DNA of 64,000 bases from Conoideocrella luteorostrata. Taxonomy: Eukaryota > Ascomycota > Sordariomycetes > Hypocreales > Clavicipitaceae. Each line of letters begins with the position of its first letter. Position 1 is the stretch's first letter. Both the position numbers and the translations under genes were made by a program. Shown here one piece after another: positions 43,349 through 62,993 of the stretch. The stretch covers positions 1-64,000 of the forward strand of contig JASWJB010000134.1 in assembly GCA_032433595.1 (NCBI GenBank). Direction: 5' to 3'. The notes under the pieces are model-generated. The model ran no database searches. It saw only the letters and a list, made by a program, of their open reading frames with translations, and was not told where the DNA came from.

Positions 43349-44872
43349 TTATTTCGTAATTCCCTTTGGACTTCTTTGACTATATGGGAAAAGAAACGAC
43401 GCAAGCCTCCTTTTAGCTTCTAATTTCAACGCCACATACTCATCTAGTGTTCTTCCTGCGGCATCTTTGTTTTCAAGAGCCCGCCGCGTAAGATACCCGA
43501 GACACTCCGTCACACTGCCCCAGGTGGAACATTTGTAAACCTCTGGTTTGGAGTCGTTAAAACTTCCAAGACGTAGGAGCCCAAAGCTCACTGCGTCTGT
43601 CATGCCATGTAGCTGAGCAAATCCCACGGGTACTGTTGACAACCCGTCTTTTAATCGTTGCTGATGGAGCTCGTAGGAACTGAATACGCTCTCTTTGTTA
43701 TGGCCGCACAACATCAGGTTCACCGAAGGGAATGGCGTACAGCCTTCTGCTCCAATATTGCCGATCTGCCGCCGTAACGCCCCATGCGCAATCGCGTTGT
43801 AAGCATTGTCTGTATCCTTTTTCGTGTCACATATCAAAGATCTCTGCTCAGTGGCTAAATAGGCACCACGCACAAGCTTGAGCCCTAACGTGAAGTTTTC
43901 ATCAAAAGCTGCTTTAAGGTGGTGTTCTATTGTTGACGTTGCATTCTTGAGATAAGCTTGGTATGTATTATATACGAGTGCGTAACCGTCTCGGTTAAAC
44001 TCTCGCATTAAATCAAGACCAGCTTTTAGAATGCCACCCTGGTAAGCTTGAGATTCAGCATCAATTAATATTCTAACTTGTCGGCGCTTGCAATGCAAGC
44101 TGATGTCTCTTAATGCATCGAACATCTGTTTTGGCAAAGGGTCACCCGCCGCGAGTGCGTCCGTTACAACGGGGCCGGCTCCAGTGGTCCTAGGATGTTA
44201 TGAGTCAGTAGAGTATCTTTGCAATGCATGAGGTTTTGCGTACTTAATTGCTAATTGATCACCTTCCCCGAGCATCTCAATGGTCTCATGTACGCCCTGA
44301 CGCCAAATCTCAATGTTCGGACACAGCCCTTTGTCTGCGTTGGTGTTTTTCTCAATGCCGAAGTCGTGTACGACTTTTGTGTTGTAGTCAAACACCGTCT
44401 CTTTCGCGTATGTAACAATAGTGCCTCGAAATCCCATACTTTTAAAAGTTCGCAAGGTCTCCTTTACTTCCCTTCCCGATTCACCAGCACAAAACTGTTT
44501 GTACACAAGTTTTTTCACTAATCCTGCAAGCGGTTTGTTACGATTGACGTCAACAAGAAAGCTTCTCTTTGGTTGACAAAGAAAAGACATGAGTGAGATT
44601 GCTGGACCGAGAAGAAAAGGCTTCGAAGAGATGGAATTGATAAGAAGAGATCGCATGAGAGCCGAGTTGGATAGGGCTGACAACGGCGAGCTATTCGTCG
44701 ATTCAACTGGATGTTTCATGGAATGAGGATCAGGCGCCCCCGCTCCGGCATTATAGGGACTGTAGTACTTCATGTCCCTAGCTGAAGGAAGCGCACCATG
44801 CCGGGCTTGAGTTTGCGTGGATAAAGCCCTACCCGCGATGTGCGTGTTGAATCTATTTCGAAAAACTGACAT
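43349..44872 (-). CDS. Proline / hydroxyproline dehydrogenase (PRODH family)
   Basis: An FAD enzyme of the mitochondrial inner membrane that oxidises proline to P5C or, in the PRODH2 subtype, 4-hydroxyproline to 3-hydroxy-P5C. Two exons (44872-44244, 44189-43349) give 489 residues; the intron is 54 nt with donor GTACGC. The N-terminus (MSVFRNRFNTHIAGRALSTQ) is rich in Arg and Ser and lacks acids, a mitochondrial presequence. Conserved blocks: LAIKTTGAGP, VRILIDAESQAYQ, GLKLVRGAYLATE, FAQLHGMTD and the substrate-binding GYLTRRALEN (Arg445, Arg446). At the position of the active-site Tyr that favours proline over hydroxyproline (Tyr540 of E. coli PutA) this protein has Cys430 (KCSTWG), and mammalian PRODH2 also has a small residue there. 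With its neighbours this points to hydroxyproline as substrate. A CGG-N8-CCG site lies about 153 bp upstream. Confidence 0.92.
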
Positions 44873-46621
44873 TTTCTCCGGAGCAATAATGAAGAGTCAG
44901 GCTCTACGGCCAGTGCTTCAGTAGCCGGCTTATAAAATAGCTTGGCCTCTGACTGATACTTACTCCCCCGAACTACTAGCTAACTAAACATTGCGAGAAT
45001 GTGCGTTGTGAGCGAGCCTCTTATCGGGTGGCATGCCGACCATTGCGGGGTTGCTGGTGGCTGCGAAACCGGGCACCCCTCTACTGGAGACGAGGCAACT
45101 TCGCTAATACAAGGATATCCGATGACTTATCTATTATTAAGTGCCTTTTTCTCAAGAAGAGCGAGCTGCTTTGCGCCTTTCTGCTTGATAAGGGCTGCTA
45201 TGTGCCAAAGTGTCACATCCCATACCCTGGTGTGGGGGTGGCGATACTACCTATGGAGAGCTCATTATGCCATGATTAATGAAAGGGTCCATCGTTGTTT
45301 CCGATCAATGGCCGGTGTGATGTCTGACGGTTGCAGGAAGCAATGGCTATCGCGGATGGTACCCGTAGCTGTTATCCCCTCGATAAGGGATATAGACAAT
45401 AGTTGCTCGTGGGTGATGCGAGTGAAAGCTGCAAATGTATGAATGCCCAACCCGGGTCCATCATTGCCGTTGTGCTGGCTATCGGACAGGCCGCCGTAGC
45501 GCGACACCAAGTAGTTCTAGATTGCCATTCCCGAAACTCTTGGATTAAGTTCGTGTCCCAACTTTTTTCTTATCTGGGCAAGGTCAATTAGGACGCGGGG
45601 TTGGATCCGCAGATTAGCATAGAGCCTTTGTGGGGTAACGTATGTGCAAGGATCTGTGACGCTTATCAACATGCAGCTTAGCATATCTGTTTAAATCTCC
45701 TCAGTAGAATACGGAGTGAAAACTTCATATTATTCATTATCAGCCGTGCAGTTGTTCCAATATACAAATCACTCCAGATAGAGAAGTTTTCGGTAAGCGG
45801 CCACAATCTTAATTGACTTGTGAGCTGTTCTGGGAAATAGACCCAACGTCGCTCTCAGTTGGGATGCCGTTGGGACCGGCACACCAAAATAATTGTTGTG
45901 TCCTTTGTGCAGCCCACCGTCGAAACAATTGGCTGGCAATCCGCGGCTTGTGTTGATGCAGTGGACTCGGATCGCTAGCACTGGCTTCTGAGCGTAATAC
46001 GAAGCGGGTACTTCTTGCATATGTTATTAACTCGATTAGGAATACATTTGTCAATTGATGCACGACCGGAATGGATCCTGCATGAGAGTGAGAAGCACTT
46101 TTCTCTACATGATTGGCTGGCTATTTCATCAATAAGCTCTATTTTCTACAGATGATGCTCTTCTTGTCCACGCGGGGATGCGTCTGGTTTATTGGAAACG
46201 CCGACCATGAGCGCAATGTTGGGAAGTTTAGTCAGTCTCTTCATGGTATGATCTGTGTCTCCGGGAACAAAGGAGGATACAGACGACTCTCCCGCAGCAA
46301 GTCGAACTAAATCTGTTTCCGCAAGAGCGTAATGGAGACTAGAAAGCATTAAGTGCGGCGGGAGACACATCTCGCTAGATGACTTATGCATGTTGATAAT
46401 ATATTCACCAAACTGTAGATTGTAACCTGAACGGAAGATTTCTGTTCCATGTAGGTAGTATCCACTCAACGATATTTAACCATAAATACTCTTTTAGCGG
46501 CATGTAACAGTGTCTTAACTTCAAAATTATGTTCTTAATACTGACTACCCTCATTTTATGTCCAATACAATTTGATCGACTCATCACCCCCGCTTTGTGA
46601 TTACCAGTACAATACCAAATT
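44873..46621. promoter_or_regulatory. Intergenic with dehydrogenase promoter
   Basis: 1.75 kb between the dehydrogenase start and the end of the P5C dehydrogenase gene. The part next to the dehydrogenase holds a TATAAA-like box (44929-44938) and the CGG-N8-CCG site at 45025. The rest has short frames without domains. Confidence 0.5.
45025..45038. promoter_or_regulatory. CGG-N8-CCG site upstream of dehydrogenase
   Basis: CGGGTGGCATGCCG, an inverted CGG pair with an 8-bp spacer about 153 bp before the dehydrogenase ATG. Inverted CGG triplets are the classic target of Zn2Cys6 homodimers, and a Zn2Cys6 gene is in the same cluster. Confidence 0.45.
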
Positions 46622-48595
46622 TTACTCGTTGCTCGGATAGGTGTATTTGCCTAACGGAGAAAACTCTTCCTTGATTGTTCTTGGGCTTGTAAATCGCCTA
46701 AGGAGATCCGAGCTTCCTGCCTTGTCATTGGTGCCACTGGATCGGGCTCCTCCGAAAGTCTGCTGACCAATGAGTGCTGCTGTGGTCTTGCAGTCTAGAA
46801 CAGAGAAAGAAAGAAAGACTAGTTAGAAAGCCGGTTTTATGAAATCGGGACGTTTAACTCACTAATATAGAAGTTTCCAGCCGCGTAGCGCAGACTGTCT
46901 TCAACTTGGCGTATGACTTTGCGATCCTTGGCGAACACAGCGCCAGTCAAGGCAAGCCCGCCACCATTCTGATCAACGGATTGCAGAGTTTCGTTCCACT
47001 TGGCGTCTGGGTAGACATGAACTACTAGCACGGGGCCGAAAATCTCCTTGTTAAAGAGCGGGTGGCTCGGGGATTCAGCCTGATACACGGTTGGTGTGAC
47101 GAAATATCCCGTAGAGCCGTCGTAAGTGCCTCCGGTAATCAATTTCAAGGTTGGGTCTTTGTTGCTCTCATCAATGATCTTCTTAATCTTGTTGAACGAG
47201 TGCTTGTGGATGACTGGGCCCATAAACGCCTCAAAATCTTTGTCGGGACTTCCAACGGTGATATTCTCGACTCCCTCTTTCAGACCGGCGAGAAACTCCT
47301 CAGCACGGGACTCCGGTACATACACACGAGAGGTAGCGGAGCACTTTTGACCCTGGTATTCGAATGCACCACGGATTGTATGGTTCACTGCGCTTGGAAT
47401 GTCCCCCGAGGAATGGATGAGGTGGAAATTTTTGCCGCTCGTCTCTCCGACAATACGAGGAAACTCGCGGTACTTTTTGCTGCCGATGCCCTGACCGATC
47501 TTTGCGTAGATAGAGCGAAAGACATCCGACGACCCAATAAAGTTGATACCGGCAAAGTCGTAATGGTCCAGGACTGTACTGGTTACCTGCTCAGCATCAC
47601 CAGGGATCATCTGTATGACATTTGGAGGCAGACCGGCTTCTAACAGGATCTTGTAAATGACGGTACTCGGATAGATGTTGTATTGGGATGGTTTCCACAC
47701 TACAACGTTACCCATCAATGCTGGGCCGGAAATGAGACTGCCGCCGAGGGCCGTAAAGTTGAAGGGCGAGACGGCATAAACGAATCCTTCAAGAGGTCGA
47801 TGTTCCACACGCCTGAGTTGAAAGTCAGCGACAAGTCTGTATGGGAATTCTTTTAGGCATGGATACTTACGTCCAAATGCCATCCGTGCCGCGAGTTGGC
47901 TGCCTGCCAAGCAGCTCAGCAGCGAAATTAACATTTAATCGGAAGAAGTCCGCAAGCTCGGCTGCGGCATCAATCTCGGCCTGCCAAACGTTTTTGCCTT
48001 GGCCCAGCATGGTGGAGGCTATAAGCTCATTTCTGTACTTGCCAGTAACGAGCTCTGCTGCTTTCAGAAAAATAGCAGCTCTGTCTACAAACGGCGTTGT
48101 CTCCCATTCCTTTTTGGCCTTGAGCGCCTCGTCAATGGCAACGTTCACCTGCTCGCGTGAGGCCAGAGGATAGTTTGTAAACTCTTTGCTGCTTTCCCCG
48201 GGCATGACTTGCATGTCTGACTTTTGAGCTGTTTGAGCTTGCCCGTTGTAGAATATCTCACTCTTGAGAGGTAGAGCCGACCGGAGACGTGCCAATTCTT
48301 TTTCCACTTCGGCTCGTTCTGGGGACGACTTTCTGTACTCAGGCTGCGTGTATAGCGGATTAGTTTGAAGTTATAGTCGGTCGGTATAGAAACAATAATT
48401 GGACATTACATTAGGCTCATTCCGCTCGTCAGGGACCCGGAAAGGCATCGTGGCCTTCATCCTCGTATGCGTCAGGGACAACATCCGACTGTTCTGTGTG
48501 AAGAACAAACCGGATGGTTTACGAGCTGCCAAGCCAGCAGACATGATCCTCGAACCGGCCATTGCTACTGTCGGAATTGGTGCGACAAATTGCAC
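46622..48595 (-). CDS. Delta-1-pyrroline-5-carboxylate dehydrogenase
   Basis: An NAD-dependent ALDH4-family enzyme that oxidises glutamate semialdehyde (from P5C) to glutamate, and 4-hydroxyglutamate semialdehyde to 4-hydroxyglutamate. Four exons (48595-48410, 48343-47871, 47812-46863, 46794-46622) join to 593 residues; introns are 66, 58 and 68 nt. The N-terminus has a Met/Arg/Ser-rich mitochondrial leader, followed by RVPDERNEPN joined to PEYRKSSPER across intron 1. Catalytic Cys377 lies in YQGQKCSATSR, the general-base block is GETSGKN, the cofactor-fold block is SPFNFTALGG, and the C-terminal INCKTTAALIGQQTFGGARSSGTNDKAG is split by intron 3 (quoted in shorthand; 46863/46794). All core residues are intact. 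It acts directly after the PRODH-type enzyme in the matrix. A CGG-N8-CCG site is about 250 bp upstream. Confidence 0.95.
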
Positions 48596-49296
48596 GATAA
48601 TTGAAAGCTATCAAGTCTCGACCTGATAAAATAGAGCTGGGTGTTGAAGTAGGGCAGTAGGGCAGGGCGTCTCGTCAGGTTAACAAGTAACGAGTAATAA
48701 CTTAGTCACGACCCAATGGTGAAACTTTGTAACTTTCATCGTTGCATCTGCAGAACTGGCGACTATTTCAATACCGATTCCTACAGATGTAATACCTCGT
48801 ACAAGGTTGTCAGCTACGACATCGGCCCTTGACTGGCCCCACAGTCGGGAGTGGTGCCGAGAGATCCTTATTAGTTTTAGTTGCTACGGCTCAGTCGCCA
48901 TAGCGCTGCTGATAAGCGTCAACGGCCAATTGACCCCAACAAGCCTATTCAACCCCAGTTTGTAACTCATGCTCCAGACTCTTTGCAAGCCGTGACTACG
49001 CTAGTACTTCTTGTTGCTCTCGGTATATATTTCATGCGGGGTAAAATTCCCGTTTCGTAATTCATTACGTCGCCTGCATAGATAACTTACCAGGAGTACT
49101 ATCGCTCGTTGCATACGTTATTATGCACAGGTTGGGTGCGGGTGTGGATGCATTGCAGTGCAGAATTACGGAGTCACTGTTTGAAGATACAAGTAGCGGT
49201 ACCGTTAGGGAGCAGTCAATTTGACAAGAGGAGAATGCCTTGACACACTGATCTGCCCAAAGAGCGAAATTCCAAAAAAAAAAAAAATCAATTCGT
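48596..49296. promoter_or_regulatory. P5C dehydrogenase promoter region
   Basis: 700 bp between the P5C dehydrogenase start and the P5C reductase end. It carries the CGG-N8-CCG site at 48846. No gene. Confidence 0.5.
48846..48859. promoter_or_regulatory. CGG-N8-CCG site upstream of P5C dehydrogenase
   Basis: CGGGAGTGGTGCCG, with the same half-sites and spacer as the site at 45025, 251 bp before the P5C dehydrogenase ATG. Its first seven bases, CGGGAGT, are identical to the site at 50792. Confidence 0.45.
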
Positions 49297-50302
49297 CTAG
49301 TGACGGGTGTCATTTACATGCTCAACAGTGCCCATGCTTCGAGCAACAGTGACTGCCTCGCGAAGTGCCCGTCCCACATGCCCTCGAACAGCCGTCTCCT
49401 CCAGAATCATGAGACCACTCATTGTGCAGCCCTCGGGCGAAGTGCCCTTGTCTTTAACTGCGCTGGGTTGCATACCACTTAGAAGCATCCGAGCCGTGCC
49501 CAGCATTGATTGCGCAATACTTCCGTGTGCGATGTCTCGCGGAACGCCGACAGCAACCGAAGCGTCAATGAAAGCCTCGCAAATGACTGCGAAGAAGGCG
49601 GGTGTTGAACCGCCCACTGCCGTTGCTGCATCCAGTAGATGCGGCTGCAGAACCATCGTTTTTCCCACGCAGTCAAAGATTGATTTGGTCGTGTCCATAT
49701 GCCCTGGCGGCAGGTCAGGATGCGGTGTCTCAATTACGGTCAATCCCGCATGAACCACAGCGGCCACGTTGGGCAAAGTCCGAATGACCCAAGCCCGATT
49801 TTCAGCATTAATTGAGTGTCCTTCCCCGTACAGCACGCCTTCGAGTTTTTGCCTTGTCCAGCCTGCTGCGACGCTGATGAGCAACTTCTGGGAGAGCTGG
49901 TCGCAAAGACCTGGCTCGGTGAGCACTGACTCCACGTCCGTAGGGTCTGTGGCTAGTATAATAACATCAGATTCGCTGACTGCCCTAATGTTATCGTTTT
50001 GGAAAACCGATAGTTTATCAGTGTAGTCGCAAAACTGTTCTTGCAACCTGGTCACCGAGCTTTGGGATCGGACAGTGGCAATAAATCTGGAGAATCGCTG
50101 TGTCTCTTTCGAAGCGTTATTCGAAGAAACGAGCAAGCCGCTCAGGATTGCGCTTCCTAGATTGCCTGGTTCGAGGTTGCAATGTTAGACTCCAAGCAAA
50201 CCATCATTTCGTCTCACTCCAATAACTGACTCCCATCCTACTACTATAAAATCACTTACCACATCCCAAAAAGCACACCGATACACTTGATACCTCATTC
50301 AT
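49297..50302 (-). CDS. Pyrroline-5-carboxylate reductase
   Basis: An NAD(P)H enzyme that reduces P5C to proline; family members also reduce 3-hydroxy-P5C to hydroxyproline. Two exons (50302-50260, 50165-49297) give 303 residues. The first exon is only 43 nt and carries MNEVSSVSVCFLGCG, whose Rossmann glycines continue across the intron as NLGSAILSGLL. Later blocks are ILATDP, ISVAAGW, WVIRTLPNVAA, a substrate-loop GGSTPAFFAVICEAFIDA and the C-terminal EGCTMSGLMILEE...GHVGRALREA, all typical of the ProC family. It is transcribed divergently from the FAD oxidase with one shared promoter. A proline-forming enzyme in a degradative cluster is odd. It may be a specialised paralogue that recycles or detoxifies the cyclic imine, and the housekeeping copy is presumably elsewhere in the genome. 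Confidence 0.92.
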
Positions 50303-50973
50303 AGCGGGACTCTGCGTGGTAATGTTAACGGTAAGCATTGCTGGTATGGAACTATTTAAGAGAGACACTAAAAATGAAAAGATATTATTCTAATAACAAA
50401 GTATCAAAGTACTTGTAGAGATGAGCAATTCCGGTGCTAATAGACTTGGGAGAGTTCCTTGCCAGAATGACAGACTCGGAGGGAGTACCGGCAAGAGACC
50501 GGAGCGTGTGGGCACGGTGTGGTTGGGACGGGGAGCCATGTTGATATCGGAGCATGGATCCGAGTGGCAGCGATAACAGCGATAGGAACAATTGCCGAGA
50601 ACTATTTGATTCGAGCGATCAGATCTAAGCTCAGTTTCTCCGATGTCGCAATTCTGGTGGCACCTCTCTGTGTCAAATTTGTCGTAACACGGCGGTGTTC
50701 ATTTTCGGACGCTGAACCACTAAACCACCACTGACGAAACTCACCCAACTCGGGTGTGGATGACCCGTCGCTGTTAGCGCGCTTGAACCATCGGGAGTTG
50801 TCCCGGTGCTTCAGTAGCTGACAACACCACGACGAACAGTGCACCTTGATTCGGGCAACAAATGAACGGGAAGGTGAGGAGTTTAGCGGCTAATATTTCA
50901 ACTCTGCATTTCTCATCATTCACTCCTTCCTTCCTATGTGCTGTAAACTATTCAGAAAGTCGCAAATTGAGCC
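50303..50973. promoter_or_regulatory. Bidirectional promoter, reductase/oxidase
   Basis: 670 bp between two divergent genes. It contains the CGG-N8-CCG site at 50792 and a direct pair of ACCGG words near 50490-50502. No gene seen. Confidence 0.5.
50792..50805. promoter_or_regulatory. CGG-N8-CCG site in bidirectional promoter
   Basis: CGGGAGTTGTCCCG, 169 bp before the oxidase ATG and 490 bp before the reductase ATG. The outer five bases on each side form an inverted repeat (CGGGA / TCCCG). Confidence 0.5.
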
Positions 50974-52359
50974 ATGAAGACCGCTATGTCAGATCCTCTG
51001 CTCATTGTAGGGGCTGGTGCGTTTGGTCTGTCGACGGCGCTGCACCTATCCAAGGCAGGCTATACGGACATCACTGTTTTCGACAAGGATGATTCAGTGC
51101 CCCCCAAATATTCTGCAGCAAATGACCTCAACAAGATCGTCAGGGCCGAATACGAAGATGACTTTTACAGCGATTTGACAATAGTACGTTTCTGACGCAA
51201 TCAAATATCCGACGTGCCCGTCCAGGGTTTGGTGCTGACCGATGCACAGAAAGCCATATCCGCCTGGAGGACACCACTATTTGCTCCCTACTACCACCAG
51301 ACCGGCTTCCTCCACTGCGTATCGAAGACTTGTCCCGAGAAAGCTGTCGGGACAATGAAACGATTCTGGGCCGCGGCTGAGAAGCATGCCAATATACGCA
51401 GGCACGTCGTACCCATCAATTCAAGGCAGGATATCCTCGATCAGGTCTGGCAATTCCAGGACGGGCCGCTTACAGGCTGGCGAGGTTATCTGAATCGCTT
51501 CGCGGGGTATGCTCAGTCCGGACATGCCCTAGCTGCAGTGTACCGCGAGCTTTGCAAGATAGGTGTCAAGTTCCGTCTGGGTCCCAACAACGAAGTGGCC
51601 CAAATCATCTACGACGGAGCTTCCTCCAACGGCTCGAAAACTGCACGAGGCGTCAAGACGAAAGACGGCAACTTCTACCCAGCCAAACTGGTGATTGTTG
51701 CGGCAGGCGCATGGGTATCTCGTCTCATTCCCGAGATTGGAAGTCAGGTTGTCGCCAAAGCTTGGTCTGTCGCGCATGTTAAGCTCACGGATGATGAGGC
51801 ATCTATGTTGAGGAACATACCCGTCACCTATGCTCGAGATTTAGGTTTTTTTTTCGAGCCTGACCCAAAGACCAATTTGCTCAAGCTGTGCCCCATGGGC
51901 GGAGGCTTCATCAACAGCGATGCTAAAACGAGCGTGTCGGTACCACCGGAAGGCCATGCGCGAAGCGCTTTCATGCCTGCAGACGACGAACGCAAGGTTA
52001 GGCAGTTACTTGCCCATACGTTACCTGCGCTCGCGGAACGACCACTCGTGAACAAACTGCTGTGCTGGTTTGCCGACACGAGCGACTCGGATTACATTAT
52101 CGACTACGTTCCAAGGACCTCATCGTCGGTCGTAGTCGTGTCCGGTGACTCTGGCCATGGCTTTAAAATGTTTCCTATCGTGGGCTCCTGGGTCACGGAT
52201 TTACTGAGCGCCACGGACGGCACGCAGCGTGAGCCTCGGTGGCGCTGGAAGATGCCCACAGCGGGGAGTTCTGCTAGCGATTGGGGCGAGAGTGTCAGCT
52301 GGAGGGTGGGCGAAACCAAGGAATTTTCATCTATCGAGGCTATAAAATCCAAGATATGA
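50974..52359 (+). CDS. FAD-dependent amine oxidase (MSOX/FAOX family)
   Basis: A flavoprotein of the sarcosine / fructosyl amino acid / pipecolate-saccharopine oxidase group, which oxidises a secondary amine to an imine and makes H2O2. Two exons (50974-51183, 51250-52359) give 439 residues, the family's usual length. The dinucleotide fold is IVGAGAFGLSTALHL near the start. The covalent flavin Cys is expected at Cys342 in LCWFADTSDSDYIID. The C-terminal SGDSGHGFKMFPIVG is the conserved FAD- and substrate-binding turn. A second in-frame ATG (50986) could also start it. There is no C-terminal SKL; it ends IKSKI, so a peroxisomal address is not evident. Secondary-amine oxidation suits proline-like substrates (N-methylated or D-hydroxyproline, or an imino acid), but the true substrate cannot be read from sequence. 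Confidence 0.85.
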
Positions 52360-52775
52360 GATGGGGATTGATCTAGTACGATTCGAGACTCTTGGCTGTA
52401 TTAGAGAGTATCGGCCCGGGGTTTTTTTTAACTAATAATCATGGTCATATCTGATTTCTCAAGATTACACTCACCTTGTGTCTGATTTGCCTGCCGTATA
52501 TGCTCATGTAGCGTCGTGCCTCGTCTTAGGCCGCAGAGGCGGAGGCCATTGATCACACCAGTTTAAAAATCTCACCGCACGAGGAAAGACTTCGAACGTG
52601 AATTGCTTGGAGACATTGACACTATCGTTTGAGAATGAGTTAAGGAGTTTTGAAGACTAAATGCGTCAAAAATGAGGTGCTCTGTTGTGCGCACTCCTCT
52701 TGACAATTTGGAAATAACACACTCCACTGTGACCAAATGTTATATTGTCACGCTATGCAAGGCAGACCTCATGCA
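52360..52775. other. Intergenic, convergent gene ends
   Basis: About 415 bp between the oxidase and regulator ends. No gene seen. Confidence 0.5.
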
Positions 52776-55473
52776 CTATGTATACTCGAAAAACGCTTCT
52801 GTCATCCACTCGCTATGCTCGGTGTCAATCGAGTTGACCATGTCCATGATTTGTGACGTCGAGAAACCAGCCCCCGTATAGTTCCCGTCAAGCACGTCTT
52901 CTGTTATGGGACTAGGTAATATGGCTTCGGGATCGGAAAAGCCTGCACCAGCCGGTGGTTCAGTTACCGTGGTCGAGACTGGAGCGTGGCGTGGAGACTC
53001 CGGAGTCCTTTCAGATACCCCAGTGAGGATTTCAATCATCTGCTGTAGGCGCTTTAATTCCGATTCATGGCACTGCGCTATTAGATTACCACTCTGAGCG
53101 ATTTCATCCAGAATTGAGAAAGCTCGATGTCGCCATGACGCCCAGTTTGATCCGTCACCCTGATACAAAACTGGAGCTACCAAGAGGTTTGTCATGCTTA
53201 TAGAGAGCGCTTCCAGATCATATGAAAGGAAAGTTTCTAGAAGAGAACCCTGGTGTTAGATGAAAAGTCGTGGATGCCATGGAATAGGAGCGTACCAATA
53301 AGGTCTTCTCTTTGCAAGCATTCCAAAATAGAGACCACGTGCTGAGACGAGTCGAGACACATTCGTAAAAGACTCTGAACGGAAGGAGAGGAATCAAAAA
53401 TGCGGGTATAGGAGTGCGGTGTTTCAAGGCGAATCTTGTAGAGACAAAATAGTATCGGCCGGGTTGCGAGAATAATGCACTAATAGTATACAGGTCATTT
53501 GCCTGCAGAATTCGTTGGATGGGGGTCACGCATATCACGCATACCTGATGGAAGAGTAAATGAATGTGCGCTGATATCCGAGGGGTGCCGCTTTCGTTAT
53601 TGTCAAGATCCAGGGGGAATTGTTGACGAAGCTCGTCTGGAAGTTTTGCCATGCTTGCCAACGTGTCTTTGGTCCGGAGAAGGAAGTTGCTGCTTAACCG
53701 CTCGTCTGGCTTGTAAATATCTAGATATAGGGACATGTCAGAGATTAAATTGATCTGAGTGAACTTTGTTTCACTCACTCCTGTCTATTGTGGCAATGAA
53801 ATGTGACAACTTGGTGCGCATTGCAAAAGCCGATGTGCGAAAAATGTCGCCTTCGAAGTCCGGCAATGGGGCAGTGACGTCTTCATCACGCACAGATTGA
53901 GGGAGTCCCGATAAGTAGGTCATTTGTCGGTCAAGAACGAGAATAGTCCACCACAGTTTTCGACATCTTGAAATGAGGGGAAACTCCACCTGGTGAGAGC
54001 TTAAATCGGTGTGCAAACCGTGGGTCATTGCCAGCCGGACTGCCTGACCAATCTGTATCTTATTAATATTAAACGTGAGCGACGTGGGCTGTTGTGGAAT
54101 CGACTGGCTCACATAGTTGTGCGCAGAGCCTCGGTGCTCAATGCAATGCAAGTACAAAGCTATACAGCATAGAATTTCAGTAGCTTGCACTGGTTCGCTC
54201 CATAGAATGGTAATGTTTGGTAGCAGCTGCATGGCATGTATAAAAAAACCAGCTCCAGGAGGTTGGTTGCCTTTGCCAGGCTTTGACGTGAGCGCTTTAC
54301 CAAACGCGAGTATCAACATAAAGTGAATGAACCATAGTTGTTGTACCAAGGCTTCGGGTTTTTGTTTGCTCTCATAATGCGCATGTAAAGCCTCCATAAA
54401 GACTGTGTCATCGAACAAGTGGAAGAGTGGACTACAGTGGAACTTAACAATATTGACCAGATGGGTGGCATAGTCCATGGTCGGCAGCGCCGGCGCCGAG
54501 TGCGATGTCCGGCTCAGATCGCCCGATCTGGGCCAGTCCAAGACATATACTTGGCCATCGAACATGAGCGCTGCTGTTGGTAAGGCGGCTTGATGAATAT
54601 GCTCATGCGTCATTTTCAAGATGCGTCGCGTGAAAGACCAGTTGGACGAATGCCCCAAGTAAACTAAGCGGGAATGTCAGCGCTGTACTTGTTTACATGT
54701 TTCAAAGTGCCACTTACAAGTTCGTCCTGTGTCAGACAACATGAATGTAGACGGCCCTGTCGATAGCGGGTTCATGAGAGACGTAGTCTCAGGCAACTCC
54801 TCAGATGCACAGTCGCCTAATGGGCCACTTTCAGTCCTCATGCTCCGAGGGTCCTGTTGCTGCAGTTCTGGAGCATCGGGGGGTCGTGAATGTAAGCCTC
54901 GGGTATCTAACCCTGGCGTAAACGTCTAACAGTTAGAATGACCTCTTCGTCTAATTGTTCGGTGCCTGAGCGACGACATACAGTCCCGAGATAGTACCAA
55001 CTCATTCTGACGAGTGATTGCCGTTGATGTTAAATTGCCCTGGGCTTCCACAAACACATTTTGGCCACCACCGAGACCCCTCTGTGTAGCCTGTTCTTGA
55101 AGTGATGCAAGATACCTTCATGTCAGCAGAAGTCAGTTTATGCCGAGACGTGTGAAGAATTGTAAAATTTCATCAGGGACGAATATGACTGACCCTCGAG
55201 TTACCAAGACTTTTTGCACGTGGTCATCAAAGATACAAGACAGTTTACGCTTGTTGCAGGCCTCGCATGGATAAGTCCCCGTGCATTTTATCTTCTGTCG
55301 ACGACATCGTGCGCATCTATTTCATGTTAATATACTCACATATAGCAGGGGCGAAAGAGCACGAACGCGTTTGACGATCTCTTGGCAATGCGACTGCGTA
55401 TGTTTGGAGGCCCAGATGCGGCCTGCCGATGATGTGTCGTGTGTTCGGGACTATCTTGACTCGTAGGCGTCAT
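52776..55473 (-). CDS. Zn2Cys6 transcription factor
   Basis: Probable pathway regulator. Seven exons (55473-55367, 55316-55194, 55115-54982, 54912-54718, 54663-53779, 53720-53296, 53249-52776) join without a frame error to 780 residues. The zinc cluster, completed across intron 1, reads CARCRRQKIKCTGTYPC then EACNKRKLSC (Cys37, 40, 47, 53, 56, 63), with the basic RKLSC/KVLVTR linker after it. A Ser/Pro-rich spacer leads to the fungal transcription-factor middle domain starting YLGHSSNWSFTRRIL. The domain continues with GQAVRLAMTHGLHTDL and RRLWW-like CRKLWWTILVLDRQMTYLSGLP. The acidic, Pro-rich C-terminus may be the activation domain. Introns have GT-AG ends, 46-69 nt. It sits in the middle of the imino-acid catabolic genes and is divergent from the aminotransferase, as PrnA is in the Aspergillus proline cluster, so I infer that it induces this set. 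Confidence 0.93.
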
Positions 55474-56754
55474 AGCTACAGGCTAAGCGCTGGATGGTTG
55501 GGAATGATCCTGCTGAAACAGGCCTCCGTGGGACGAGATATGCCTCAACGTTATCTCCCATGATTGAGATGTCAAGTCAACATGGCAGGTGTTTCCACAT
55601 TTTGATAGATTGCAGTTGGGCTGCCAGCTGGTTATCAGCGATGCCATTCCACCCCACCCTCCGCTCAGCGTTTGTTGCACCAGCGCCCTCCAGTAGTTGT
55701 GCGCGGCGCGCCATGACCACCCAGTCAGTTGACCCCAGTCGAAGCCCAGAGGCTCACCGGCTGCACCCCGCACGCTTTTCCAGATGTGTGCAATCATCGA
55801 GTAGTTAGCACCAACGCAGAGTCCGATCACGGCAGCCTCGTGTCAAAACCTGCCCCAGACGAGGTGGACTCGTCATAGCATCTGGACATCCCTCACTCAC
55901 GGAGCAGCAGCCAGCCAGCAATACCCCGCCACCAACAGTGACTGTATGCGCCAAGGCCATTTGAGCCATGCGTTGCGACAAATTCGTGGAAGCTCTGACT
56001 GACCTTGACAAAAGGCTAAATACAGTCCTGTTGCGCAGCAAATAAGCGGTTTTTGCGACATGGTTAAAGATAAAGTTACGGTCCATAATCCTAAGGGTAG
56101 GGTATTGGAATTGTGTTGGTTCGCAACCGGCTTTCCTGAGTTCCAAGAGAGCATATTGACATTGCTCTTTACACATTTATATGCCACCCAACAGAGCCGG
56201 TTTCATTATTCTATGGCTGAAGTCTCTTATCTCCATATGAAGGACTGGGCACAATGTGGTGTCCTTCGTCGCTAGCTGGCATGCCCTACTTGTGCTGCCG
56301 TATGGGCCTATCATCCACCAAGTAATTGTAGATAACACTGGGGGCGGCCGACGACCCGCCCGGATAGTGTCCCGACACATCTGCAGCGTTGAAATCCGAC
56401 TGTAAGCCTACTAGAACGGTGCACAGCGGAACAAACAGTCTAGTTTGATAGAGCAAATCAGCTGTTCCTTGAGGCAGCGACATTGTTGATTGGATCTTCT
56501 TATGCATGTATCGCACTGAGTCCGACATACTGGCCGAACCGTTCCGGGACTTCTTACCGACAGTACCATCCCAGTTCGCTCATAGCGCTCGTGGGGGCAG
56601 AGTCTTGCAGGCATCAGCCAGGCTTAACAAATGTCAGGCCCTGCCAGAATAAAACCTGTGGAATCCCGATTGACTTTTCGACTTTAGTTTGCATTGCCGG
56701 CCTCGTTTCGGTTGACATCGTTATTTTTTTTTATTTTTGCACGAGTCCAAAGCC
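55474..56754. promoter_or_regulatory. Bidirectional promoter, regulator/aminotransferase
   Basis: 1.28 kb between the divergent regulator and aminotransferase genes. It holds the CGG-N8-CCG site at 56361 and a long T run just before the aminotransferase. Minus-strand frames here are short and lack domains. Confidence 0.5.
56361..56374. promoter_or_regulatory. CGG-N8-CCG site upstream of aminotransferase
   Basis: CGGATAGTGTCCCG, 381 bp before the aminotransferase ATG and about 890 bp before that of the regulator. It shares the right half GTCCCG with the site at 50792. Confidence 0.45.
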
Positions 56755-58096
56755 ATGGAAGCACATCAAGCTGAATCAGCCTTCGCAGCTGCATCATACA
56801 TACCGCCCGACAGGATCTTTGAGCTCACGAAGCTGTACAATGAGGATCAATGCCCCGACAAAGTCAATTTAGGACAGGGAACGTACCGTGATGAAAACGG
56901 TAACCCGTGGGTGTTGCCAGCTGTATGTGCGGCAAAGGATGCCCTAGGTTCAACTGGGCACGAGTACCTTCCAATCCGCGGTCTACAGACATTCTGCGAC
57001 AGTGCCGCCAAACTTGTGCTGCATGATACAAAAGCATTGGAGGAGAATAGGGTATGTGGTGCGGTGATAAATTGACACGTCCCGGGCTGATCATCTTTGA
57101 AGGTTGCGACATGCCAAGCATTGTCAGGGACAGGAGCGCTTCTACTGGCAGGCCTCACAATAAAGAAGGCCCAGACTGGCATTGACACCATATACATTCC
57201 AACCCCAACCTGGACAAACCATGAGACTATATTCCAGTCAGTAGGATTTCGCGTCAAGGAAATACCCTATTACAGAGACAGAGCATTCAACTTTGGAGCG
57301 TATTTAAGCGCCCTCCAGGCAGCGAATAGCCATTCGGCAGTGATCCTGCACGCTTGCGCCCACAACCCCACTGGCTGCGATCCGTCTCAAGATCAATGGC
57401 GGCAAATTGCGGCAGTGATCAAGCAGAACGGAATTTTCCCAATTTTTGACGCAGCATATCTAGGGTTCAACTCTGGGTCCGTCGACGAGGATGCATGGGC
57501 TATTCGACACCTGATAGAAGATCTGGCTCTTGAAGCTGCTATTTGCGTTTCATTCGCGAAGAACATGGGACTATACGGCGAGAGAGTTGGTCTTACAGCT
57601 TTCGTGACCAAAACTCCCGACGTGAGCCGCACAATATCCTCTATACTCGAGAGGGGTCAACGTTCAACTGTCTCAAACCCTCCTGCATATGGCGCCCGAA
57701 TTGCGGCTACTGTCCTAGGCGACAGTCGCATTAAAACACAGTGGTCTCAAGACCTGCTTACTATGTCTTCCAGAATTAAAAATATGCGTAGAAGATTGCA
57801 TGATGACCTCGTGCGCTTGGAAACGCCGGGTGATTGGTCCCACATCATTCAACAAAGCGGCATGTTCGCATACACTGGAGTCAGCAGTCAGTGTGTCAAT
57901 TGGCTGCGTGGTACGTATAACCCTTCACAGTTAGAATTGCTATTTGTGTTAACCATTTCTCCAAGAAAAATATCACATTTACATGCCAAGCACATCAAGA
58001 ATCTCCATTGCGGGCCTTACCGAAAGGACAGTGACCTACGTGGCGAATGCTATAAATGATGTAGTTCGCATGGAAATTAAACACAAATCTACATAA
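56755..58096 (+). CDS. Aspartate-type aminotransferase (class I)
   Basis: A PLP enzyme that moves an amino group between dicarboxylic amino and keto acids. Aspartate aminotransferase is known to convert 4-hydroxyglutamate to 4-hydroxy-2-oxoglutarate in hydroxyproline breakdown. Three exons (56755-57051, 57103-57910, 57966-58096) join to 411 residues; the last exon restores the family C-terminus (YHIYMPSTSRISIAGLTERT). PLP Lys252 lies in SFAKNMGLYGERVG, the aspartate/cofactor blocks are HACAHNPTGCDP and PIFDAAYLGF, and VNLGQGTYRDENG is near the N-terminus. It has no mitochondrial presequence (MEAHQAESAF), so it appears cytosolic, unlike the two preceding oxidations. It is divergent from the regulator with a shared promoter. 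It would perform the third step of the proposed pathway. Confidence 0.94.
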
Positions 58097-59258
58097 ATAA
58101 AACAAATACACACAAGGCCTTAAAATTATACTTTGTTAGTTCTAAGATGTGACTAAGCTGTTTCCGAACTACTTTTAACCGTTATTCCAATCATATTTCA
58201 GCATTCGTGAGCCCCGTCGTTTTCACCCGTACAATCGCGATATAGAACAAACTCGTAAACACCACTTGCATGTATTTTCTATCATTATGTTCGAAATTTT
58301 ACTCCCAATGCTAGCTTATTGACTAAATTATACGTTGTCTTTGCAATTTTCCATCAGTTCAACTTTGCTTGGAATGATCAGCACATTTACGATACAATGT
58401 AGCATAGCTGGAGGGATGAAAAGACAGCCCCGCCACCATCAACAATTTTTTTCCAAGAATCACAGCCCTCGACGTTATGCGCGAGAATCGAGGTAACCAC
58501 AGCGGGACTGGTTATTTTGTCATTATGCTCTCTTCTATCTAGTTATGAGTGCTCCCACATTGCACAACTCCACGTAGCGGGCTCGTCTTCGTGAGCAATC
58601 TACAGTATGAGGCAATTAATTTTTGCATGGCAGCTGGTACTGCGCGAATAGGCTGGGCATCTAGGCAGGAATTTGCGCGAAATTAACGATAGAAAGCTTC
58701 AGAATTTGATCATCAAATGTCCCATCGAGTAAGACGCTAAAGTCTAGTACATGAAGTATTAAATATTTATTTTGGTTGCTCTGCCGAGCAGTGACGGCGA
58801 TGTTGACAAAACCCGAACCGGCGCGAAAACGTAATGCCTCCTCCCACTGTATGGCGCATCGTTCGAGTGTTAAGCGGGGTAACCCCGGTTCACCATGGCT
58901 GCCCCAAATCCACCGGGCCGGCAGCCTGTGCACTCAGACAGTGGGCCTCCAGTAAATCCGAGCCAACAACAACTAAGTCGAGCGTATGGAGGAGTAGTGG
59001 CGGCTTCAAACTACTGCTTGGGGCGTTGTACTGTGCTGAACGTCGGCTCGGCACAAGTTACCGGTCGCCGGAACGCAGCCCGGTGATTGCCCCAACCAGC
59101 TCGCCATGCATGGCCGTTCTCGGAGGGAAACGGCCATCATCATTTATTTATTAATACAATTCTGATGTGCTATACATTGAGATCACAAGTAGCGAATGAA
59201 TTGAATATTGCTGCAAGCACAAGCACATCCGGCAACAGTCACCAACATCGTCACCAAC
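58097..59258. promoter_or_regulatory. Aldolase promoter region
   Basis: 1.16 kb between two genes transcribed in the same direction. It is rich in CCGG/CGG words from 58870 on, including CGGGGTAACCCCG (58875 region, 7-bp spacer) and the CGG-N8-CCG site at 59069. No gene seen. Confidence 0.5.
59069..59082. promoter_or_regulatory. CGG-N8-CCG site upstream of aldolase
   Basis: CGGAACGCAGCCCG, 177 bp before the aldolase ATG. It has the same half-sites and spacer as the other four sites in the cluster. Confidence 0.45.
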
Positions 59259-60263
59259 ATGGCGACCAACGGAGTTTCGAGGGCTACATTTCCTCATGTA
59301 CCGCCAGCAGGTGTTTGGTGCCCTGCCGTCACCTGCTTTACCGAAGACGACACTCTCAATATTGAAGCTCAATCCAAGTATTTCGCCCATCTTGCCAAGT
59401 CTGGCCTCACTGGCTTGGTGGTTATGGGTACAAATTCAGAAGCCATGCTCCTTACCCGAGAGGAGCGGTCGCAACTTGTTTCCACCGCTCGCCAAGCGAT
59501 CGGACCTAATTTTCCGCTGATGGCAGGCGTTGGAGCGCATTCCACAAAGCAAACTCTTCAGTTTGCTGAGGATGCAGCCAAGGCAGGCGCCAACTACCTG
59601 TTAGTGCTCCCGCCAGCCTATTTTGGCAAGGCAACGACTATGACCACTGTTAAGAGGTTTTTCGCCACGGTTGCCGATGCGGTCAGCCTACCAGTTATTA
59701 TTTACAACTTCCCTGGCGTTTGCAATGGAGTGGATCTTGATTCAGATACTATTACGAGCATTGTTCATGACAGCGCTAGGTCTAATCCTGCCGGTATCTC
59801 TAATGTTGTTGGCGTCAAGCTTACTTGTGGCTCTGTTGGAAAAATCACGCGCTTAGCTGCACAGCATCAGGGTCAAGATTTCTCGATCTTTGGCGGCCAA
59901 TCGGATTTTCTCATTGGTGGCATGGCGGCTGGCAGCGCGGGATGCATAGCCGCCTTTGCAAACGTGTGTCCGACGTTGACCTCGGCAATATATAGGCTTT
60001 ATAAAGCAGGTGACCTTCAAGAGGCCATGAGGCTACAACAACTAGCGGCATTGGCTGAAAGCCCTTGTAAAGGCGGCATTGCGGCGACCAAGTTCGCTGC
60101 CGCTTACTATTCCGCAAAGTTGGCGGGAATTGAGAACGCAGAGGCCAAGTTTCGACCCAGACATCCGTACGAGGAGGCTACCGAGGCGGTCAAAAAATCT
60201 GTGAAGGATGTTATCAAGGCTGCCGGAGCAATGGAGGAGTTGTTACAAAAGTCGTCCAAATGA
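59259..60263 (+). CDS. DapA-family aldolase, likely 4-hydroxy-2-oxoglutarate aldolase
   Basis: A class I (Schiff-base) aldolase of the dihydrodipicolinate synthase / N-acetylneuraminate lyase superfamily. The mammalian member HOGA1 splits 4-hydroxy-2-oxoglutarate into pyruvate and glyoxylate, the last step of hydroxyproline breakdown. One exon, 334 residues from the ATG at 59259 (upstream codons in frame lack an ATG). The Schiff-base Lys187 is in VVGVKLTCGSVGK, the catalytic Tyr149 in IIYNFPG, and VMGTNSEAMLLTREER is the substrate-loop block (usually GTTGE in DapA, here GTNSE as in many HOGA-like proteins). Fungi do not make lysine through dihydrodipicolinate, so a biosynthetic DapA role is excluded. 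Other keto-acid aldolase substrates remain possible (for example 2-keto-3-deoxy acids), but the neighbours favour 4-hydroxy-2-oxoglutarate. Confidence 0.88.
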   Translation: MATNGVSRATFPHVPPAGVWCPAVTCFTEDDTLNIEAQSKYFAHLAKSGLTGLVVMGTNSEAMLLTREERSQLVSTARQAIGPNFPLMAGVGAHSTKQTLQFAEDAAKAGANYLLVLPPAYFGKATTMTTVKRFFATVADAVSLPVIIYNFPGVCNGVDLDSDTITSIVHDSARSNPAGISNVVGVKLTCGSVGKITRLAAQHQGQDFSIFGGQSDFLIGGMAAGSAGCIAAFANVCPTLTSAIYRLYKAGDLQEAMRLQQLAALAESPCKGGIAATKFAAAYYSAKLAGIENAEAKFRPRHPYEEATEAVKKSVKDVIKAAGAMEELLQKSSK

Positions 60264-61277
60264 AATGGACAGATTACTTTGCACGGCACTGGTATGGCAT
60301 GACACATAAATTTAATGTGATGATTTTGCAGTGCTCACTATGATCGCCGCAGAGGCGGAGCAAACTGCCCTTGAGATGTTAGACAATAGTTTTAAGGCTC
60401 GTATCGCTGCTAGCGTCGCCAACAAACGAGACATTCATTCCCGCCACAGACATGTGTGGCAATTGACATGACAAGCTTATAACCCCAAGTGAGCACAAAT
60501 ATTAGGAAGGGAGGAGGTTGAATTCGATGTCCTTTGTGCATGGACGCACGTATCTTCTGGCAAGATTACTGCGTGATATCTGTCGTGTGCAAGAATTATA
60601 ATGTGCGGCTAATGACAGTCACCGTGATTCCCATCCCCCCAGCCGTAATTCCGTCGCCGCTACGGGTCAGTGGTGCGTTGGTTAAAACAATAATCGGTAA
60701 TGCCGAAAAACGATAAGCAACAGGCGCCTTTCCCCGGAGCAACAGATGGGTGTTCAGACCCACTAGCGAAGCGGGTCAAAGACTGACCTACGGCGTATCA
60801 TTTCTATCAATTCAGCTTGGTAATTAATGCAAGGGCTGATGTCCCAAGTCCAACCGGATAAGATCAGTAGTTATGCTAGTTCTCCGAACTCCGTAGATGC
60901 GCAGAACTCGCATTCACCCTATCAAACGACGGCAGCCTGCATTCCCGCATTCCCGCATTGGCCACCACGCTTGCAGCAAAACGGAGGCGTGGAACACAGA
61001 GGCACACGACTCAGCATAAACCACGGGCATCCCTGGACTGCGGAGTACTTAAGAGCCTTTATCGCCCCATTGCCACTTCATCCGAAACCCTCGGGTTGTA
61101 GACCTCATACTTCAACTCAGTGCACATAACCCTTGGCACGAATCGCTGCTGCTCAATCCTCTTTGCCCATAGTGGAGCAGGTCTTTTTCGTCATATTTTC
61201 CTCGTCGCGCTATTTGGCGCGTCTCACATGTCCAAAGCTCGATTTGCTCTTTAGCTACGCTAGAGATTGTCCAAAAA
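60264..61277. promoter_or_regulatory. Transporter promoter region
   Basis: About 1 kb upstream of the transporter. I looked for CGG-N8-CCG and found none; CGG-N5-CCG occurs once near 60694. One TACGGAGTA-like word lies near 61040. No gene seen. Confidence 0.5.
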
Positions 61278-62993
61278 ATGTCAAATAACATGGAGTCAAA
61301 GGATAAAGAGAATCTTCCGGGCCCTCCGTCTCTCGGTGTGGCTGATCACGGCTATGGTGATGTGTCAAGCGTCCAAGACGCGGTATTCGGAGATTTGAAT
61401 GAAACTGGACCAAATTACCGTAATGTATGCGTGCCTGTTTAGTTGATGTGTCATGATGTTAAGCTTAAACTAATGCCTTGAATAGGTTGGATGGCTGGGA
61501 ACCGTCGCCCTAATGATGAAGACCCAGATCGGTCTAGGTGTTCTGTCTATACCTGCGACGTTCGATACTTTAGGCTTAATTCCTGGCATTATCTGTCTAA
61601 TTGTCATTGCTGCTATTACCACCTGGTCGGACTACATCGTCGGTGTATTCAAGCTGCGACACCCCCAGGTATACAGCATTGACGATGCCGGAGGTTTGAT
61701 GTTTGGTCGCATAGGGCGTGAAATTTTTGGCACCGCATTCTGTATATGTGAGTACTCAAAATTCCACTAGTCCGGCCGGGAGGACACGATGGCGATCTTC
61801 ATATTGCAGTCACGGGATGATGACAGCTTTCTGACATCTTGTAGATTGGATCTTCGTTGCGGGATCAGGAATGCTGGGCATTTCAATTGGTCTTAACGCG
61901 GTATCGACCCACGGGGTATGCACTGCGGCCTTCGTCGCTGTTGCTGCTATTATTGGATTCATGTTTGGCAGTATTCGGACGCTAGGCCGGATCAGCTGGT
62001 TAGCCTGGATAGGGCTAACATGCATCTTGGTCTCAAGTAAGCATTTCCTTTCTCTATCTTTTGGAGAGTAATACATCGTCTCCCCATTTAGGATTCTAAT
62101 GCGAGAGTAATCATAGTTTTTACCGTCACAATTGCTGTTGGTGTTCAAGATCGCCCCGCTGCAGCACCCCAGGGACAACCTTGGGTCTCCGATTTCAAAC
62201 TCTTCAAGTCGCCGTCATTCACCTCGGCAATTTCTGCTGTAGCATCGCTTGTATTTGCGTACGCAGGGACTCCGGCATTCTTTGCCATCGCGGCTGAGAT
62301 GCGAGACCCGAGACACTACAGCCGCTCACTTCTCATCTGTCAGTCGGGAGTGACAGCCACGTATATCATTGTTGGTACCGTTGTGTACTACTTCTGTGGC
62401 TCTTACGTTGCTTCCCCCGCACTTGGTTCTGCGGGTCCATTGGTGAAGAAGGTTGCATATGGCCTCGCTCTTCCCGGTCTTATAGTTACAACAACTCTGG
62501 TTGTTCATGTGAGCATGCCCTTCTCTGTCGGTCAAATTTGACATACGCTAACGACTGGGCGGCCCTGTAGATTCCTGCCAAGTATATATTTGTGCGTGTC
62601 TTACGAGGATCAAGACATCTCACAGCTAACGGCTTTGTTCACTGGGCGAGCTGGCTTGGCTGCACTTCACTTATCACTGTAATTGCTTACTTGATTGCGA
62701 GTTCGGTTCCTGTCTTTGGCGGTTTGGTCGCCCTTGTTGGAGCTCTTCTCGGCACCCTTATGTCATTGCAGCCCATGGGGTGCATGTGGCTATACGACAA
62801 CTGGGGGAATGGCAAGAAAGACCGAACTCTTAAATGGCTCCTGATGGTGGCTTTCAGCATCTTTGTTGTGGTAATAGGCACATTTATTATGGTTGCTGGT
62901 ACTTATGGCTCGGTTATCGGTATTATAAACTCTTATAAGGAGAATGGTGGCTCAGGCGCTTGGACATGTGCGGATAATTCGAATTCAGTGTGA
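61278..62993 (+). CDS. Amino-acid transporter (AAAP family, Mtr-like)
   Basis: A proton-coupled amino-acid permease of the Aa_trans family, like the Neurospora neutral amino acid permease Mtr. Five exons (61278-61424, 61486-61747, 61845-62036, 62117-62508, 62571-62993) join to 471 residues. After a 49-residue hydrophilic N-terminus come about 11 hydrophobic helices. VGWLGTVALMMKTQIGLGVLSIP covers the first helix and its conserved break (quoted span 61486-61554), and FAYAGTPAFFAIAAEMRDP is the central conserved loop. The third intron ends at CATAG (62116), the only acceptor that keeps frame. Its place at the end of the cluster suggests uptake of hydroxyproline or proline at the plasma membrane, which is an inference. 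It lacks the CGG-N8-CCG site seen upstream of the enzyme genes. Confidence 0.92.

Follow-up and report, generated by a model that had tools for sequence, protein, structure and literature searches.

The window, which is the first 64,000 nucleotides of contig JASWJB010000134.1 (C134) of the insect-killing fungus Conoideocrella luteorostrata, holds eight intact neighbouring genes in the interval 43349-62993, running from the stop codon of a PRODH-type dehydrogenase gene at the left end to that of a transporter gene at the right end (Table 1). A first-pass annotation made from the letters had proposed an eight-gene cluster here, and the gene models bear this out, as none of the eight is interrupted by a stop codon and the introns follow the GT..AG rule. 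None of the ten larger flanking open reading frames scanned extended the proposed hydroxyproline (Hyp) pathway beyond the cluster, and Rfam gave no match within 42900-64000.

Table 1. Genes and predicted zinc-cluster dyads at the candidate Hyp locus, with flanks (positions in the window).
Feature	Position	Strand	Remarks
DUF4385 gene	42296-42814		left flank
PRODH-type dehydrogenase, proposed 4-hydroxyproline dehydrogenase	43349..44872	-	489 aa, 2 exons (43349-44189, 44244-44872)
CGG-N8-CCG dyad, PRODH upstream	45025..45038	+	two more, at 45483 and 45596
P5C (glutamate semialdehyde) dehydrogenase, proposed 3-hydroxy-P5C oxidation	46622..48562	-	582 aa, 4 exons
CGG-N8-CCG dyad, P5C dehydrogenase upstream	48846..48859	+	
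P5C reductase (P5CR)	49297..50302	-	303 aa, 2 exons
CGG-N8-CCG dyad, divergent P5CR/FAD-oxidase promoter	50477..50490	+	second at 50792-50805
FAD oxidase, fructosyl-amine oxidase group	50974..52359	+	447 aa, 2 exons; C-terminal SKI, PTS1-like
Zn2Cys6 transcription factor, proposed pathway regulator	52776..55473	-	761 aa, 8 exons; one weak donor GTCTCT
Two overlapping-range CGG-N8-CCG dyads (56345, 56361), aminotransferase upstream	56345..56374	+	
Aspartate-type aminotransferase, proposed 4-hydroxyglutamate to 4-hydroxy-2-oxoglutarate	56755..58096	+	411 aa, 3 exons
CGG-N8-CCG dyad, aldolase upstream	59069..59082	+	
DapA-family aldolase, proposed 4-hydroxy-2-oxoglutarate aldolase	59259..60263	+	334 aa, no intron
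AAAP-family amino-acid transporter, proposed uptake	61278..62993	+	474 aa, 5 exons; PF01490 149.4 bits
MUG190-like C2 proteins			right flank

The dehydrogenase matches PF01619 (155.7 bits in a six-frame search), and its first 40 residues, with six R/K, one D/E and seven S/T, resemble a mitochondrial presequence. In the alignment with E. coli PutA, K329, D370, Y437, L513, R555 and R556 are conserved and Y540 is replaced by Cys; according to the available text of PMC3718742, Tyr540 sets the preference for proline over Hyp. Cys occupied this site in 118 and Ser in two of the best 120 of 1306 homologues, and the fungus's own paralogue on contig C135 has Tyr. A protein that keeps the catalytic residues and lacks the proline-enforcing Tyr would suit the Hyp dehydrogenase step of a mammalian-type 4-Hyp pathway. 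Many database entries among the homologues listed are named proline oxidase or proline dehydrogenase.

The aldehyde dehydrogenase scored 696.7 bits with TIGR01236 (cut-off 613.6) and carries the catalytic motifs GETSGK and QKCSA, and both score and motifs point to the P5C dehydrogenase of such a pathway. It is 57% identical over 493 residues to a paralogue on C194, which is the genome's best TIGR01236 match; for the P5C dehydrogenase gene on C247 no sequence was recovered for the paralogue comparison. The aminotransferase falls in the NF006719 subfamily (386.4 bits, cut-off 377), and its alignment with E. coli AspC retains the PLP Lys, Asn194, Asp222, Arg292 and Arg386. The equivalents of K258, R292 and R386 in AspC numbering we take to be the PLP lysine and the two dicarboxylate-binding arginines, and the residues retained argue for a dicarboxylate (aspartate-type) aminotransferase. 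The paralogue comparisons exclude the DapA protein of C2 and the aminotransferases of C53 and C265, whose translations followed a wrong or cut reading frame (for C265, probably so).

The aldolase (PF00701, 152 bits; AlphaFold model with pLDDT 84.9) is 60% identical to the uncharacterised Coccidioides protein 3qfe and 27% identical to human HOGA. Relative to HOGA it keeps the catalytic Lys196 and Tyr168, the HOGA-type Asn78 and Gly222, and has Thr in place of Ser77 and Ser198. The description of this protein as HOGA-like was overstated, since human HOGA ties with bacterial DapA structures in closeness to it, the fold fails to single out HOGA, and Asn78 and Thr198 are likewise carried by the paralogues on C73 and C141.

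P5CR scored 206.8 bits with TIGR00112 (cut-off 196.75). What had been called an FAD amine oxidase is indeed an FAD oxidase (PF01266, 103.6 bits), but is more aptly called a DAO-superfamily oxidase close to the fungal fructosyl-amine oxidases, as its best PDB relative is 3djd (213.9 bits) and monomeric sarcosine oxidases reach 46 bits at most. The C-termini of its best 120 homologues read x-[KR]-[LI] in 116 and [SAC]-[KRH]-[LMI] in 71. The regulator matched PF00172 (Zn_clus, 28.6 bits) and PF04082 (Fungal_trans, 39.4 bits) on its N-terminal 559 aa.

The zinc-cluster dyad CGG-N8-CCG was found nine times, in five of the seven upstream regions (4952 bases), where 0.81 copies were expected from the 33 copies counted over 202,006 bases elsewhere in the same genome. 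Nine or more dyads at any of 13 spacings were obtained in none of 5000 intergenic-like draws and in none of 2000 Markov sets; the cluster upstream regions are themselves rich in CGG triplets. No dyad lies upstream of the transporter. A strict site pattern, CGGGAGTKGYSCCG, had four matches in the genome (backwards control, 0), about three being the estimated chance expectation in a genome of this size, and because the pattern was built from three window sites only the match on C398, at an unlinked alanine aminotransferase gene, is independent. A promoter k-mer hunt gave 9-mers (one mismatch allowed) in six of seven regions against 1.1-1.9 expected, as the best of very many.

The available text of the review PMC8779045 takes 4-Hyp to glyoxylate by four enzymes, PRODH2/HYPDH, P5C dehydrogenase, aspartate aminotransferase and HOGA1, and all four enzyme types occur in the cluster. 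P5CR and the FAD oxidase, which had also been assigned to the pathway, are both identified at the locus but are not among these four. The step-by-step match with the 4-Hyp route that the first-pass annotation had drawn agrees with the gene types, with the specificity residue of the dehydrogenase and with the dicarboxylate residues of the aminotransferase. As in mammals (PRODH2/HYPDH, ALDH4A1, GOT2, HOGA1), a dehydrogenase with a small residue in place of the Tyr of proline-specific enzymes is found with an aspartate-type aminotransferase that has both binding arginines and a class I DapA-family aldolase, here in one locus. The cluster differs in adding a regulator, a transporter, the FAD oxidase and P5CR, in its Cys at the Tyr540 site where human PRODH2 presumably has Ser, and in an aldolase distant from HOGA and, judged by eye, without a mitochondrial presequence.

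Degradation of Hyp is the best reading of the cluster, and a probable one on these sequence comparisons. The AAAP transporter would take up Hyp, the mitochondrial-looking Cys-type dehydrogenase would convert it to 3-hydroxy-P5C and P5C dehydrogenase would yield 4-hydroxyglutamate, from which the aminotransferase would form 4-hydroxy-2-oxoglutarate for cleavage to pyruvate and glyoxylate by the aldolase, and the Zn2Cys6 protein may induce the genes through the predicted CGG-N8-CCG sites. The least certain part is the FAD oxidase and P5CR, whose divergent promoter has two dyads; they may form a side branch, which probably recycles the pyrroline intermediate or channels in another ring-amine form, either a stereoisomer or an N-substituted Hyp.

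Linkage in other fungi was counted from the 120 best homologues per search, equally long contigs being taken as one. PRODH and FAD oxidase homologues had 25 contigs in common among the matches listed, and both genes were seen on one contig in Aspergillus, Penicillium, Colletotrichum, Fusarium and Purpureocillium. PRODH and aldolase had seven, including that of C. luteorostrata, the others being in Purpureocillium, Hirsutella and Fusarium. Fused PRODH-P5CR models occurred six times among the 120 PRODH homologues listed, and all six P5CR halves were closest to the cluster P5CR (52-58%, against 40-48% for the C264 protein). The matches listed held one fused AAT-PRODH model, P0062 of Fusarium, with an AAT half 66% identical to the cluster aminotransferase and 47% to the C296 paralogue. 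The common contigs for PRODH, FAD oxidase and aldolase, and the fused models for P5CR and the aminotransferase, show linkage of these genes across species, and together with the repeated promoter dyad they now lend support to the proposal of one regulated unit.

As to the dehydrogenase-aldolase synteny suggested as a check, the two genes are linked in the three genera above but unlinked in seven organisms compared, including six of six Eurotiales species, where they lie on different contigs (Paecilomyces variotii, with PRODH and aldolase from different strains, was left out). Only part of the group might be a Hyp unit, with the aldolase, and perhaps the transporter with its dyad-free upstream region, as a later or chance arrival at an old core of PRODH, FAD oxidase and P5CR, the aldolase serving for instance in sugar-acid cleavage, and some aldolase relatives among the matches listed are named 2-keto-3-deoxy-L-rhamnonate aldolase. 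This is unlikely given the contigs common to aldolase and PRODH in three other genera, the close locus tags of the two in Fusarium sp. NRRL 66182 (5484 and 5488) and the adjoining oxidase and aldolase tags of F. nematophilum (012937 and 012938). The wide distribution of the dehydrogenase and oxidase pair, in the five genera named, makes feeding on animal or nematode collagen, which had been put forward for the cluster, unnecessary as an explanation.

The fungal prn cluster holds PRODH, P5C dehydrogenase, an amino-acid transporter (prnB, of the YAT permease family) and a Zn2Cys6 regulator. The cluster resembles such prn/PUT-type proline clusters in these four adjoining gene types; unlike them it adds the aminotransferase, aldolase, FAD oxidase and P5CR, its transporter is of the AAAP family, and its dehydrogenase has Cys, the Tyr-type paralogue lying on C135. 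The substrate might instead be a different cyclic secondary amine, whether D-proline, pipecolate, an N-substituted proline or, under special conditions, proline itself; having a small residue in place of Tyr540 would then just widen the pocket. P5CR and a saccharopine/fructosyl-amine-type oxidase do resemble a pair that fungi use to make pipecolate, saccharopine oxidase with P6C reductase, and some oxidase homologues among the matches listed are named L-saccharopine oxidase. Proline and pipecolate degradation, however, are not known to require a pyruvate-type aldolase, yet one accompanies PRODH on its contig in Purpureocillium, Hirsutella and Fusarium, and a Tyr-type PRODH (C135) and second P5C dehydrogenase (C194) are available for proline, which makes this substrate range improbable. 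In the available text of PMC10621835, Put3 of Candida albicans, a known proline activator, showed no induction by Hyp isomers.

Bacterial Hyp clusters encode an epimerase, a D-Hyp dehydrogenase, a deaminase and a KGSA dehydrogenase, and the 1-pyrroline-4-hydroxy-2-carboxylate deaminase is a DapA-family enzyme. The present cluster resembles them in encoding an aldehyde dehydrogenase together with a flavoenzyme of the DAO family and a protein of the DapA family, and the genome has proline-racemase-family genes, but a route of this style, with the DapA-family protein as the deaminase, the FAD oxidase as a D-Hyp oxidase and an epimerase encoded elsewhere, is very improbable, as none of the six genome matches reported for PF05544 (on C2, C561 and C126) is on C134, the aldehyde dehydrogenase is a P5C dehydrogenase (173.5 bits for alpha-ketoglutarate semialdehyde dehydrogenase, NF042993, cut-off 770), and PRODH and the aminotransferase would have no use. 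A possible Hyp cluster of bacterial type on C2, where a DapA paralogue and a gene of the proline racemase family occur, was set aside because a GABA transaminase, an MMSDH-like gene with a broken frame and a regulator lie near its DapA gene.

No description of a fungal Hyp gene cluster appeared in search listings of open-licence papers. Aspergillus fumigatus is reported in the available text of PMC2526178 to grow slowly on Hyp as nitrogen source, and its genes co-regulated in Hyp medium are reported to include 16 groups that are physically linked (Table S8), so that expression data for an Aspergillus counterpart may already be published. More tentatively, the Hyp degradation unit may represent an undescribed regulon of filamentous ascomycetes, with a clade of Cys-type Hyp dehydrogenases, a Zn2Cys6 activator of its own that works through CGG-N8-CCG sites, and a branch made up of P5CR and a peroxisomal FAD oxidase for Hyp forms beyond the mammalian route; it might include the unlinked alanine aminotransferase on C398 for glyoxylate/pyruvate disposal.

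Collagen and the glycoproteins of plant cell walls are rich in Hyp. If Hyp is the substrate, the mammalian set of steps would be found collected in a fungal gene cluster, giving named, testable genes for fungal Hyp use, a one-residue marker for fungal Hyp dehydrogenases now often annotated as proline oxidase or proline dehydrogenase, and a handle on the use of host collagen or plant extensins by moulds.

The assembly analysed comprises 46.4 Mb in 620 contigs, and the cluster lies on a contig of 105206 bases, C134, whose initial 64000 bases make up the window; a published draft of the insect pathogen C. luteorostrata is described with 47.39 Mb, 864 scaffolds and 49% GC (PMC12352038). The eight neighbouring pathway-type genes proposed in the first-pass annotation were confirmed by clean gene models and family matches for all eight, and their order and orientation are shown in the table. 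The FAD oxidase, a DAO-superfamily protein near the fungal fructosyl-amine oxidases, is divergent from the P5C reductase (P5CR). A flank scan covered ten larger ORFs on both sides of the cluster, from 6 kb to 97 kb of C134, and the closest scanned genes were a DUF4385 gene to the left and two MUG190-like genes to the right. In the left half of the window (6286-31766), ORFs for a polyketide synthase, a cytochrome P450, an MFS/TRI12 transporter and an AMP-binding enzyme possibly form a secondary-metabolite cluster.

Cluster genes from left to right, followed by associated features and by PRODH/oxidase locus tags in other fungi
Feature	Location or locus tags	Strand	Remark
Proline-dehydrogenase-type enzyme (PRODH)		-	
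P5C dehydrogenase (P5CDH)		-	
P5CR		-	
FAD oxidase		+	
Zn2Cys6 regulator		-	
Aspartate-type aminotransferase (AAT)		+	
DapA-family protein (aldolase)		+	
AAAP transporter		+	
Strict dyad site	window 63417-63430	-	424 bases past transporter stop
MUG190-like SMP/C2 protein gene	C134:64992-67481	opposite to next	adjoins cluster
MUG190-like SMP/C2 protein gene	C134:69121-72072	opposite to previous	adjoins cluster
Aspergillus hancockii	003772, 003776		close together
Purpureocillium lilacinum	013444, 013448		close together
Cosmosporella	000620, 000650		close together

In E. coli PutA, Tyr540 is described as setting the preference for proline over hydroxyproline (Hyp) (PMC3718742). Alignment to PutA shows that Lys329, Asp370, Tyr437, Leu513, Arg555 and Arg556 are all conserved in the window PRODH and that position 540 is Cys, as it is in 118 of the best 120 of 1306 PRODH homologues (Ser in the other two), the window PRODH itself being one of these 120. 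That Cys at this position would favour Hyp is extrapolated from the PutA Tyr540 result, the observed part being the loss of Tyr alone. The paralogues within the genome carry Tyr (contig C135), Cys (C49) and Ser (C247). The Cys-bearing PRODH at C49:127912-128622 had no further proline-pathway gene among the ten adjoining ORFs scanned. A second, proline-type cluster at C247:2291-10614 contains the Ser-type PRODH, a P5CDH, two P5CR and a flavin-reductase-like ORF; a Zn2Cys6-type ORF follows further along C247, as does an amino-acid permease. At C2:117361-130260 a proline-racemase-family gene has a GABA transaminase gene, a regulator gene and a DapA paralogue in its vicinity, together with an MMSDH-like gene with a broken reading frame; the genome contains six PF05544 matches.

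The group to which the FAD oxidase belongs acts on secondary amines. Its C-terminus is SKI, and among the homologues listed x-[KR]-[LI] was found in 116/120 and the stricter [SAC]-[KRH]-[LMI] in 71/120, endings typical of peroxisomal import. Elsewhere in the genome the top long match was 35% identical (C15), and a 46-residue piece on C64 was 57% identical.

Linkage in other fungi was compared through contigs common to the best 120 matches of each of the PRODH, FAD oxidase and aldolase searches, two contigs of equal length being counted as one and the same. PRODH and FAD oxidase homologues shared at least 25 contigs, 9 of these below 500 kb, and were on the same contig in 25 of the 32 named organisms present in both listings and not in the other 7. 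For the dehydrogenase-aldolase pair, for which the first-pass annotation had proposed a synteny search across ascomycetes, at least 7 contigs were common, C134 included; the two genes were on different contigs in 7/14 organisms compared, namely six Eurotiales and Metarhizium acridum. Because the Eurotiales do have PRODH and oxidase on shared contigs, they provide a negative control for the contig matching. FAD oxidase and aldolase homologues shared at least 4 contigs. Among the matches listed, fused gene models joined PRODH to the window-type P5CR in 6/6 such models and AAT to PRODH in one; these may be prediction artefacts, yet they show that the genes are adjacent. In a tree of 36 aldolases (34 of the best 120 homologues and two paralogues from the genome itself), the window aldolase clustered with Metarhizium and Pochonia (support 96/87), separate from the copy on C18.

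Seven analyst-chosen upstream regions, 4952 bases in total, contained 9 CGG-N8-CCG dyads, located upstream of PRODH, P5CDH, P5CR/oxidase, AAT and the aldolase; within these regions none was found upstream of the regulator or the transporter. The background of 33 in 202,006 bases of other genome stretches gives 0.81 expected, rising to 1.6 with the whole window, cluster included, as background. Nine dyads were never reached in 5000 draws of seven pieces from 55 intergenic-like pieces at any of 13 spacings, nor in 2000 Markov sets with N8 or any of 13 spacings, and 15 other spacings gave 0 to 4 sites each across the 8147 non-coding bases of the cluster. Three additional N8 sites fall inside coding sequence. 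Part of the signal may reflect general CGG-triplet richness, because direct CGG repeats were likewise enriched (6 to 7 at three spacings versus 0.8 to 1.1 expected). The strict dyad form had 4 genome matches, at window positions 48846, 50792 and 63417 and, as the sole match outside the window, at C398:30518, 711 bases upstream of what is presumably the start codon of a gene for alanine aminotransferase. No ORF of more than 84 codons occurs from the transporter stop to 64000.

The chemistry of Hyp degradation is itself already known; no description of fungal Hyp gene clustering, of the Cys marker or of the FAD oxidase/P5CR branch was found in the open-licence literature searched. A. fumigatus is reported to use Hyp as nitrogen source, although it grows slowly on it, and in Hyp medium 16 groups of linked genes are described as co-regulated (PMC2526178). 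Candida albicans Put3 is reported to show no activation by Hyp isomers (PMC10621835), and on that account a separate Hyp regulator would be needed. Taken over all eight genes, a Hyp-degradation cluster is the most economical reading.
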